Shown piece after piece: positions 11,206-18,178 of a stretch of 64,000 bases of DNA (within the stretch, counting starts at the first letter, position 1; every line of letters begins with the position of its first letter). The position numbers and the translations under genes are program-made. Under the pieces are notes generated by a model, which saw nothing but the letters and a program-made list of their open reading frames with translations, searched no databases and was not told the origin of the DNA. Origin of the DNA: an uncultured Flavobacteriaceae bacterium (lineage in GTDB: Bacteria > Bacteroidota > Bacteroidia > Flavobacteriales > Flavobacteriaceae); the NCBI GenBank assembly GCA_947487895.1, contig CANKYF010000004.1, positions 62,001 through 126,000 of the forward strand, read 5' to 3'.

Positions 11206-11268
11206 ATGAATACAAATTTAAATACTACTTGGTGGTGGCGCTTCAGAAACTTAACATTCGTGAAGTAA
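11206..11268 (+). CDS. trpL: trp operon leader peptide
   Basis: A 20-codon frame, ATG at 11206 to TAA at 11266-11268. Its residues run MNTNLNTTWWW RFRNLTFVK, with three consecutive TGG codons at 11230-11238. Consecutive Trp codons are the hallmark of a leader peptide that senses charged tRNA-Trp by ribosome stalling. It starts about 20 bases after a good promoter, is followed by alternative hairpins and a terminator, and precedes trpE. The GIY-YIG unit now lies between the terminator and trpE. I am confident in this call from sequence alone. Confidence 0.92.
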   Translation: MNTNLNTTWWWRFRNLTFVK

Positions 11269-11329
11269 AAACCTAGTATATTTAAATCTAAAATATCATA
11301 GAGGCTTGTCATTCACGACAGGCTTTTTT
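11241..11329 (+). promoter_or_regulatory. Transcription attenuator of the trp operon
   Basis: Three alternative pairings are visible. Segment 1 (CTTCA, 11241-11245) can pair with segment 2 (TGAAG, 11261-11265). Segment 2 (TCGTGAA, 11258-11264) can instead pair with segment 3 (TTCACGA, 11312-11318). Segment 3 belongs to the terminator hairpin (11302-11324, stem about 9 bp with two G-U pairs), which is followed by seven T. A ribosome stalled on the Trp codons at 11230-11238 would cover segment 1, free segment 2 to pair with 3, and let transcription proceed. With ample Trp the terminator forms. Confidence 0.85.
11302..11329 (+). terminator. Attenuator terminator hairpin
   Basis: AGGCTTGTC and GACAGGCTT pair around the loop ATTCAC and run into TTTTTTT. 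This is the regulated terminator of the trp leader. Confidence 0.82.
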
Positions 11330-11343
11330 TATTGAACATTTTA

Positions 11344-11706
11344 GTCATTTCCGCGAAGGCGGAAATATTTATGAATGAAGAAAGCACATATTATATTTAC
11401 ATCATGTCTAACAAAAAGGATGGGATGATTTATATTGGCTTTTCAGGAAATTTAAAACTAAGGTTAATTCAACATAAAAACAGATACAGTAAAGGGTATG
11501 TTAACAGACATCATTTAACAATGCTGGTTTATTATGAAAAATTTGGGAAACCTAATGAAGCTATAAAAAGAGAAAAACAAATAAAAAAATGGAATAGGCA
11601 ATGGAAAATAAACTTGATTAATGATTTTAACCCAAATTGGGATGACCTAAGCTATTTTTTTAATATTTAACACAAGTACTAAAATTTCCGCCTTCGCGGA
11701 AATGAC
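11344..11706. mobile_element. GIY-YIG unit 1: nuclease gene between perfect inverted palindromes
   Basis: The 363-base unit is bounded by exact 23-bp inverted repeats (11344-11366 and 11684-11706). Each repeat is GTC followed by a hairpin: ATTTCCGC, loop GAAG, GCGGAAAT. The GIY-YIG gene at 11371-11670 fills the interior. No transposase and no clear target-site duplication are visible. The unit lies between the trp attenuator and trpE. A related unit sits at 17833-18178. Mobility is inferred from the repeated structure and the insertion into two spacers of one operon. Confidence 0.6.
11371..11670 (+). CDS. Small GIY-YIG endonuclease-domain protein
   Basis: A 99-residue single-domain GIY-YIG protein. 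The two signature strands are YYIYIMSNKKDG and MIYIGFSG, followed by the helix with LKLRLIQHK (catalytic Arg region) and the later KREKQIKKWNRQWK with the family Glu. The C-terminal NPNWDDL word is shared with the copy at 17867-18151. I chose the ATG at 11371 because the upstream in-frame codons fall inside the palindrome. Proteins of this small group are often annotated as excinuclease C-like, but they lack every other UvrC domain. Palindromes flank the gene on both sides, so it may act on these hairpins; that is inference. Confidence 0.88.
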   Translation: MNEESTYYIYIMSNKKDGMIYIGFSGNLKLRLIQHKNRYSKGYVNRHHLTMLVYYEKFGKPNEAIKREKQIKKWNRQWKINLINDFNPNWDDLSYFFNI

Positions 11707-13128: not shown

Positions 13129-13130
13129 CG

Positions 13131-13207
13131 AGTTTAGAGTTTAGAGTTTAGAGTTTAGAGTTTAGAGTTTAGAGTTTAGAGTTTAGAGTTTAGAGTTTAG
13201 AGTTTAG
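13131..13207 (+). repeat. 11 tandem copies of the heptamer AGTTTAG
   Basis: Eleven perfect 7-bp units fill the first half of the 153-base trpE-trpG spacer, starting 3 bases after the trpE stop. Perfect repeats of this kind can change length by slippage. Confidence 0.95.
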
Positions 13208-13281
13208 AAAGTTGAAAAAAATATTTTAAAGAAAATATAATTAAAAAAGTTTCTCCCCTCTGGGGAGATTAAGAGGGGCTT

Positions 13282-13858: not shown

Positions 13859-13896
13859 AAAAAGTATAATAGAATTAAAAATTAATTTAGCAGGAT

Positions 13897-14119
13897 GTCA
13901 AGTCCTAATTTCCGATGCAATCGGAATAATCAATCTGCAGAAATAATGAGAGAAGGAATGTAGATACAAAGCGAAGCTTTAAGCACGAAATTCCGAGAGC
14001 GAATGTTCCGAAGGAATTTCCTCAGATTGATATGATTTTTTGGTTCGTTTTGTATCAAGACAAAATGAACAGAATAGAAAAAAAACAAATTTATAGATTC
14101 CTGATTTTGCAGGAATGAC
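13897..14119. repeat. Gene-less palindromic composite in the trpG-trpD spacer
   Basis: Four nested or adjacent inverted repeats are visible. TTCCGAT/ATCGGAA is at 13910-13926. ATCAATCTG is at 13929-13937, with its complement at 14023-14031, about 85 bases later. GTTCGTTTTGT/ACAAAATGAAC is at 14043-14070 with one G-T pair. ATTCCTG/CAGGAAT is at 14097-14116, followed by GAC. The last has the same layout as the ends of the GIY-YIG units (hairpin then GAC). It may be a non-autonomous relative or decayed copy. I see no coding frame in the spacer. Confidence 0.55.
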
Positions 14120-14133
14120 AAAAAGTGTAGTTA

Positions 14134-17832: not shown

Positions 17833-18178
17833 TTCATTTCCGCGAAAGCGGAAATCTCAAAAAGTTATGGATATTCATTATGTATACATACTAACAAATA
17901 AAAATCATACGGTTTTATACATAGGAAGAACAAAACAATTAAAAGAGCGATTAAAACAACATCAAAACAATAGTTCAGCAACTTTTACAGGGAAATATAA
18001 CGTCACCAAACTTGTTTATTTTGAAACAACTAAATACGTAAACAACTCAATAAAAAGAGAACGACAAATAAAAAAGTGGAATAGGGAATGGAAAATCAGT
18101 TTAATCAATAGTTTAAACCCCGATTGGAAAGACCTTTCTGAATACATTTAAAAAGATTCCCTCTTTCGAGGGAATGAA
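17833..18178. mobile_element. GIY-YIG unit 2: nuclease gene between structurally matched palindromes
   Basis: The left hairpin is ATTTCCGC, loop GAAA, GCGGAAAT (17836-17855). The right hairpin is ATTCCCTC, loop TTTC, GAGGGAAT (18156-18175). In inverted orientation the two ends differ at two stem positions, and both differences are compensated on the other arm, so base pairing is preserved. The unit lies between trpB and trpA and contains the GIY-YIG gene at 17867-18151. It is a diverged relative of the unit at 11344-11706. Confidence 0.6.
17867..18151 (+). CDS. Small GIY-YIG endonuclease-domain protein
   Basis: A 94-residue single-domain GIY-YIG protein, MDIHYVYILTNKNHTVLYIG at the start with both signature strands, then LKERLKQHQN and the conserved SIKRERQIKKWNREWK. 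The ending NPDWKDLSEYI parallels the copy at 11371-11670. The two proteins share the same plan but differ throughout, so they are not a recent duplication of one copy. The gene interrupts the trp operon between trpB and trpA, in the operon's direction. It starts just inside the left palindrome. Confidence 0.88.
   Translation: MDIHYVYILTNKNHTVLYIGRTKQLKERLKQHQNNSSATFTGKYNVTKLVYFETTKYVNNSIKRERQIKKWNREWKISLINSLNPDWKDLSEYI

Follow-up and report, generated by a model that had tools for sequence, protein, structure and literature searches.

Small GIY-YIG nuclease genes between inverted REP hairpins, candidate mobile elements of the CGTC-REP class

In the window (the whole 64-kb stretch of DNA analysed here, which belongs to contig C4 of a genome of 4.39 Mb), a gene for a small GIY-YIG nuclease is located between the trp leader and trpE and is enclosed by exact 23-nt inverted hairpins. 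A GIY-YIG gene between hairpin repeats is a general pattern over many phyla. We consider it probable that the arrangement REP / GIY-YIG / REP, with the tags outside, is an autonomous member of the CGTC-REP class in which the nuclease acts as the mobilising enzyme. Small GIY-YIG enzymes are likely to be the partner hitherto missing for the spread of a large class of palindromic repeats in bacteria; cleavage, transposition and mobility are what we infer from sequence.

CGTC-tagged REPs were described as a superfamily by Di Nocera, De Gregorio and Rocco (2013), who found them in five phyla; the superfamily includes Neisseria dRS3 and Rickettsia RPE-4 and RPE-6 and, according to the excerpted text of that paper, is apparently without a dedicated transposase (PMC3733652). 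The same excerpts define its members by an unpaired CGTC, TGTC or CCTC tag at one end, a stem of 8–9 bp whose first two pairs are AT, a loop of 4–5 nt and a 3-nt tail, mostly CCA; the repeats are multicopy, and pairs with the tags outside predominate (PMC3733652). Among the matches listed in the open-licence PMC literature, to which preprints do not belong, no paper joined GIY-YIG nucleases with REPs and none joined GIY-YIG with dRS3; the nearest pairing of terms was one Moraxella pangenome paper, in which the two words stood in separate places.

Results

The unit upstream of trpE

The left REP of unit 1 (11344–11366, plus strand) consists of GTC followed by ATTTCCGC-GAAG-GCGGAAAT, and the right REP (11684–11706, minus strand) is its exact reverse complement; both are copies of GTCATTTCCGCGAAGGCGGAAAT, with the tag (GTC on the left, GAC on the right) facing outward. 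The first-pass annotation had described exact 23-bp inverted repeats around a small GIY-YIG gene, each a short hairpin with a GAAG/CTTC tetraloop followed by GAC, and both sequence and folding confirm this. As single-stranded DNA, the repeats form an 8-bp stem and a 4-nt loop with GTC/GAC left unpaired, at folding energies of −8.1 and −7.7 kcal/mol, and none of 200 shuffled sequences was equally stable. The 20-nt hairpin pattern ATTTCCGCNNNNGCGGAAAT, searched with up to 3 mismatches, was detected at 3 sites in the 64-kb window against 0.14 expected, a count reached by 0 of 100 shuffles; the third site is part of a second unit in the trpB–trpA gap. The base before GTC is A at the left repeat and T at the right one. 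The intact ORF between the repeats (11371–11670, plus strand, starting with ATG) encodes 99 aa, matches the Pfam GIY-YIG domain (PF01541, E = 2.1e-15) and contains the catalytic residues of that fold, Y10, Y21, G23, R31, H35 and E68.

The neighbouring trp leader (window 11206–11335) comprises a 20-codon ORF with WWW and then a terminator-like hairpin; this ORF and hairpin were present upstream of trpE in all 20 loci inspected, our own included. Elsewhere in the operon, tandem GAGTTTA repeats lie between trpE and trpG (window 13130–13208), and a non-coding repeat of ~190 bp in the trpG–trpD gap (window 13890–14125) resembles, by eye, one in the trpB–trpA gap of the relative G002 (L072), perhaps representing another dispersed repeat family among trp gaps.

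A second unit and the occupancy of the trp sites

The first-pass annotation also reported a second such unit in the same operon. This unit exists between trpB and trpA, where it encodes a 94-aa GIY-YIG nuclease (17867–18151, plus strand), but it is imperfect and more diverged than unit 1: in its left hairpin (17833–17855, plus strand) TTC replaces the GTC tag, and its right hairpin (18155–18178, minus strand) has a different stem, ATTCCCTC/GAGGGAAT, and a TTC tag on the minus strand.

Neither trp unit is fixed at its site. The unit 1 protein was found in 2 of 30 trpE loci, our own and one other (G001, 72% identity), and the unit 2 protein in 5 of 30 trpA loci (our own included, one truncated, two of the loci from one genome), so that orthologous trp operons without the units, a comparison with which the earlier annotation had proposed, do occur. 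Among the 21 trpA loci inspected, the trpB–trpA gap was bare in 4 (L077, L081, L086 and L088) and contained a gene-less pair of different REPs in 2 (L076 and L078).

Hairpins beside homologous genes

Loci were taken from GTDB contigs by protein alone, with six seed proteins from loci whose flanks had already been inspected (five of these had clear REPs), and the best 80 of 563 are referred to as the named loci. The strict rule demanded an outward GTC-tagged hairpin with a stem of at least 7 within 250 bp of the gene. Enough flanking sequence was available for 76 homologues of the best 80 of 563, and hairpins were detected on both sides of 44, on one side of 29 and on neither side of 3. At random positions in the same loci the corresponding numbers were 1, 80 and 773 (n = 854), and at other ORFs 0, 10 and 93 (n = 103). 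When eleven alternative 3-nt tags were substituted, CTG gave 7 two-sided cases of 76, CAG 1 and the other nine tags 0.

A Bacteroidota set, made up of the best locus from each of 30 genomes, gave 9 two-sided, 6 one-sided and 15 negative loci under the strict rule. Many of the 15 negative loci were noticed to carry GTCAT repeats with long loops, after which the rule was widened to longer loops and 300 bp. The widened rule yielded 16 two-sided, 12 one-sided and 0 negative loci of 28 (our own locus was dropped and one lay at an edge), compared with 6, 11 and 174 of 191 control positions and 1, 9 and 130 of 140 shuffled flanks. Applied to the 76 homologues (best 80 of 563), it gave 47 two-sided, 26 one-sided and 3 negative loci, against 5, 90 and 785 of 880 positions and 0, 17 and 363 of 380 shuffled flanks. 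The uvrC genes of the same 30 Bacteroidota genomes were flanked on both sides in 0 and on one side in 3 of the 29 tested (one at an edge).

Thirteen loci from a plasmid collection, drawn from 32 tblastn records (33 with a second query), were read by eye. In 8 of the 13 the gene was clearly bracketed by REPs (Azospirillum, Sinorhizobium meliloti, Rhizobium CIAT894, Neorhizobium, Sphingobium, Novosphingobium, Aeromonas and Neisseria), with the Azospirillum unit lying between sufB and sufC and the Neisseria unit inside a REP cluster; bracketing was less regular in 3 of the 13 (Planktothrix, Spirosoma and Sinorhizobium K101). It was unclear in the other 2 of the 13. Photobacterium was rejected as a bracketed locus, having a REP downstream only. 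In the R. tumorigenes plasmids, REP pairs were near the nuclease but not directly around it, and the length difference between these plasmids was no clean insertion.

Most homologues tested in both sets carry hairpins, and the association between nuclease and REPs is well supported, as firm as sequence allows. The pairing seen at first pass is real; its occurrence in many phyla and the membership of the hairpins in the CGTC-REP superfamily had been missed.

Comparison with CGTC REPs

The window hairpins fit the CGTC-REP superfamily as defined in the excerpts cited above. Both repeats of unit 1 carry GTC, while unit 2 has TTC, and the ATTTCCGC/GCGGAAAT stem with its GAAG loop agrees with the definition. 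For the named loci (best 80 of 563), the base preceding GTC in the 126 best REPs was C in 108, T in 16, A in 1 and G in 1. Of 117 REPs in the named loci (best 80 of 563), the stem was 8 or 9 in 108 and the loop 4 or 5 in 107, and an AT stem start (101) and a CCA tail (96) were common, neither of which the search had demanded; several Bacteroidota REP types have longer loops than the definition gives. The window copies end in ATT and TTT instead of CCA, which does not exclude membership because the excerpted definition says “most” (PMC3733652). The hairpin pattern (up to 2 mismatches) was present at 21 sites in our own genome, with 0 in the control. Adjacent REP pairs not around a nuclease in the 80 named loci (best 80 of 563) were HH (tags outside) in 71 cases, TT in 46 and HT in 25, HH pairs thus being the commonest. 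The repeats described here resemble CGTC REPs in tag, in 8–9 bp stems usually starting with AT, in 4–5 nt loops, in the CCA tails of the named loci and in HH pairs. They differ in that a GIY-YIG gene lies between them, whereas the excerpted paper reports no transposase, and the pairing with GIY-YIG genes also occurs in genera which that paper names, namely Azospirillum, Sinorhizobium, Neisseria and Novosphingobium (PMC3733652).

Match between REP type and nuclease

For 85 two-sided loci from the named, Bacteroidota, own and plasmid sets, identified with a slightly looser tag rule, the left and right REPs had identical first 8 stem bases in 39, compared with a mean of 10.7 and a maximum of 20 in 2000 shuffles. 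On a FastTree tree of the nucleases, REP type changed 26 times among the 99 loci, where shuffling gave a mean of 48 and a minimum of 44, or 45 times when 25 unclassified loci were included (shuffled mean 69, minimum 64). Both the left-right match and the agreement with the tree may partly reflect common descent, as related hosts share both.

The nuclease was patchily distributed, with matches in 136 of 247 Bacteroidota genomes and up to 10 matches per genome. One REP pattern was found in 43 of the 247 (0 in the reversed control), and a nuclease was detected at E 1e-12 in 41 of these 43 and in 95 of the 204 genomes without the pattern. The first-pass annotation had suggested counting solo hairpins per genome against the presence of the nuclease; this pattern occurs almost only in nuclease-bearing genomes. 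The search covered a single REP type, and other types may be present in many of the genomes that have the nuclease and lack this one. Within families the association was modest (19 observed against 14.4 expected, P = 0.004, nine informative families; the counts were made by hand and family f31 was left out). Two REP-bearing genomes lacked a nuclease at the threshold, G136, with 12 REP sites and no Y1 transposase match either, and G236.

Within our own genome, 12 GIY-YIG matches were detected, two of them in long proteins (UvrC and one exonuclease-like), neither of whose genes passed the formal flank test under the widened rule. The ten shorter genes were mostly surrounded, by eye, by inverted repeats that differed between genes, and 4 of the 10 passed the formal test (3 on both sides, 1 on one side). 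Variant repeats were visible by eye only at L001, L002, L007 and L012, and L004 and L009 adjoin tRNA genes. The reading frame of L001 continues into the downstream gene, and L005 and L012 contain stops. A generic scan for GTC-tagged hairpins over 400 kb of this genome gave 69 matches against 105 in the reversed control and was unusable there.

Insertion sites and copies

Sites with and without a unit were also found outside the trp operon. Between sufB and sufC the unit is present in Azospirillum lipoferum and absent from ramasamyi, oryzae and B510, the last of which carries another short insert. At the Sphingobium site, TomMM15, TomMM7A and TomTYG46 have the unit, which TomTYG72 and TomTYG74, two of four shorter ones, do not. 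The single fused hairpin at the empty site of TomTYG74 was considered as an excision scar and is read instead as a deletion between 8-bp repeats of the two REPs. Insertion was clear at the Azospirillum, Sphingobium and S. meliloti sites, but the ends were eroded and exact ends could not be taken from them. Beside a full unit, S. meliloti carries an internally deleted copy consisting of a REP, the last part of the gene and a REP. In genome G131, two genes 6.4 kb apart have identical coding sequences and are 99% alike over 420 bp; the right-hand likeness stops three bases past the GAC of the REP, and the left-hand likeness runs into a REP cluster. This near-identical pair could also be explained by recombination between REPs. 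Three GIY-YIG units in tandem, ~420 bp apart and 92–96% alike over the matched stretches, were observed in L286 (1037–2138, G123:C86) and are a local amplification of one unit.

REPs of such types also occur gene-less elsewhere in the genomes. A common one in our own genome, the F3 repeat, was present at 30 sites when up to 3 mismatches were allowed, with 0 in the control. Two of these sites flank the broken gene L012 (C4:217212–217379, two stops); these REPs seem to have outlived the nuclease. All 18 F3 copies starting with GTC were preceded by T, which makes up 0.34 of a 400-kb sample. At 6 of the 30 F3 sites the flanks, when joined, pair for at least 6 bases, as in GTCATTCCTGCGT-F3-AAGGCAGGAATCC and GTCATGCTGAACT-F3-TTGTTTCAGCATC, where F3 denotes the 24-nt match, against 99 of 5000 random positions and 16 of 462 mismatched flank pairs (made with 22 of the 30 sites). 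Some F3 copies, in this one REP family of one genome, interrupt the loop of a second REP, and no target duplication is visible there; the 3′ boundary of the insert is ambiguous by a single base.

Discussion

We postulate that each nuclease binds the hairpin or cruciform formed by its cognate REP and cuts next to GTC, which would mobilise both its own gene and gene-less REPs. Insertion would follow a pyrimidine in DNA that is exposed as a single strand or a loop, and the moving DNA could be single-stranded or be copied into the break by host repair. In its fullest form, that stand-alone GIY-YIG nucleases of ~95 residues are the long-sought mobilisers of CGTC REPs and make up a new class of very small mobile elements, each recognising the folded hairpin of its own REP and inserting REP-bounded DNA behind a pyrimidine of exposed DNA, by preference in a hairpin loop, with no target duplication, the proposal deserves about as much belief as doubt. 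Several observations weigh against the nuclease as mobiliser: among the 76 homologues (best 80 of 563), 29 were flanked on one side only and 3 had no REP, only 4 of the 10 shorter genes of our own genome passed the formal test, 2 of 43 REP-bearing genomes had no nuclease at the threshold, the within-family association was modest (P = 0.004), a full transposase would be expected to be larger than ~95 aa, and no partner gene was noticed.

The nuclease could instead be a housekeeping enzyme, an Slx1- or UPF0213-like structure-specific nuclease that trims or resolves REP cruciforms and stays beside its substrate while REPs spread by other means. The structure model of the unit 1 nuclease (mean pLDDT 90.5) was nearest, at modest scores, to solved structures of UPF0213 proteins and of Slx1, which structure titles present as a nuclease processing branched DNA, and the nearest proteins by sequence were UPF0213 and UvrC; likeness to Slx1 would fit a hairpin or cruciform substrate, and unit 2 occupies the same site across genera of the family. 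The many matches per genome, the patchy distribution, the orthologous sites without a unit, the broken copies (L005 and L012) and the near-identical copies with different right flanks are, however, the profile of a mobile gene, and a cleaner would not need its own gene to be bracketed by its own REP type, which makes this role improbable. Still less probable is that RAYT or IS200-type transposases move the REPs and that the nuclease gene rides as a bystander in REP-rich intergenic DNA. Of the 43 REP-bearing genomes, 20 were tested for a Y1 transposase match and 18 of these had one, and a lack of RAYT-like genes is therefore no argument; what speaks against Y1 genes is their want of flanking REPs. 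Of the best Y1 gene from each of 12 REP-bearing genomes, none was flanked on both sides and 2 on one side, and Di Nocera et al. (2013), in the excerpted text, likewise report Y1 genes not bracketed by CGTC REPs (PMC3733652). Moreover, G235 has 14 REP sites and the nuclease with no Y1 match, the two REPs of a unit agree with each other and with the nuclease tree, and other ORFs in the same loci are unbracketed.

An unlikely but more serious alternative is a homing logic, in which the nuclease cuts REP-like hairpins elsewhere and the gene and its REPs are copied in by recombinational repair with no transposase activity; it overlaps the mobiliser reading, in which the copying step is left open. 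GIY-YIG is a classic homing-endonuclease fold, and some REPs sit in the loops of other REPs. The fold and catalytic residues are shared with free-standing GIY-YIG homing endonucleases and with UPF0213, UvrC and Slx1: the window proteins match PF01541, and Y, Y, G, R, H and E are invariant in 35 sequences. Unlike those proteins, the subfamily is bounded by REPs, Pfam recognises the catalytic domain alone in the window nucleases, with no accessory domain, and a comparison of the window protein with 50,697 phage records gave no match at E 1e-5, which also ruled against a phage homing gene. The unit 1 gene is, furthermore, flanked by whole REPs on both sides and not by the halves of one target. 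A defence role was rejected, no PADLOC match being found for 3 proteins, and none of 8 proteins scored above the cut-off of an NCBIfam model. Transcribed intergenic hairpins can serve as terminators or mRNA-stability elements; that those around this small gene are ordinary elements of this sort is hardly credible, given that the GTC tag, the two-sided outward symmetry and the copies inside other REPs are not features of terminators.

Among the known systems closest to the unit, REPtrons (REP plus RAYT/TnpA_REP) likewise have small tagged palindromes in inverted pairs around a dedicated small nuclease gene, matching left and right repeats, and gene-less copies and pairs elsewhere. REPtrons have an HUH/Y1 enzyme and a GTAG tag, whereas the units described here have a GIY-YIG enzyme (the window proteins match PF01541, not PF01797), a GTC tag and up to 10 nuclease matches per genome. 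The unit thus works like a REPtron, with inverted flanks of its own REP type, yet is not a REPtron by membership, since the defining enzyme and tag are absent. The analogy drawn at first pass, a REP/RAYT-like pairing with a GIY-YIG nuclease replacing the tyrosine transposase, gains support from the flank, trp-site and genome-level tests. IS200/IS605 elements insert after fixed bases without target duplication, which together with their hairpin ends is a further likeness; they use TnpA, whereas here the enzyme is a GIY-YIG nuclease, for which single-strand transposition would be one possibility.

If the proposal is true in its fullest form, the role of RAYTs and of the IS200/IS605 enzyme was invented independently with an unrelated protein. 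A dedicated nuclease beside CGTC REPs, dRS3 among them, would explain their spread, make mobility directly testable and add to RAYTs a second, unrelated means of REP mobilisation. Its presence also points to a function for the genes whose annotation reads simply “GIY-YIG nuclease family protein”; should hairpin specificity be confirmed, compact structure-specific nucleases could become tools.

A second small GIY-YIG subfamily (L275–L284; C1:146235–146474 and C18:40058–40282 in our own genome) was found in 5 of 59 genomes searched, our own included. This sister subfamily may represent a tRNA-directed counterpart of the REP-bounded element, with tRNA D-arms possibly serving as the hairpin. Of its 10 matches 8 loci were scanned, each of which had a tRNA gene (Met, Arg, Leu or Asp) within ~310 bp, mostly less than 75, and partial copies of 5′ tRNA halves with a GC-rich hairpin in the D-loop were visible there by eye.
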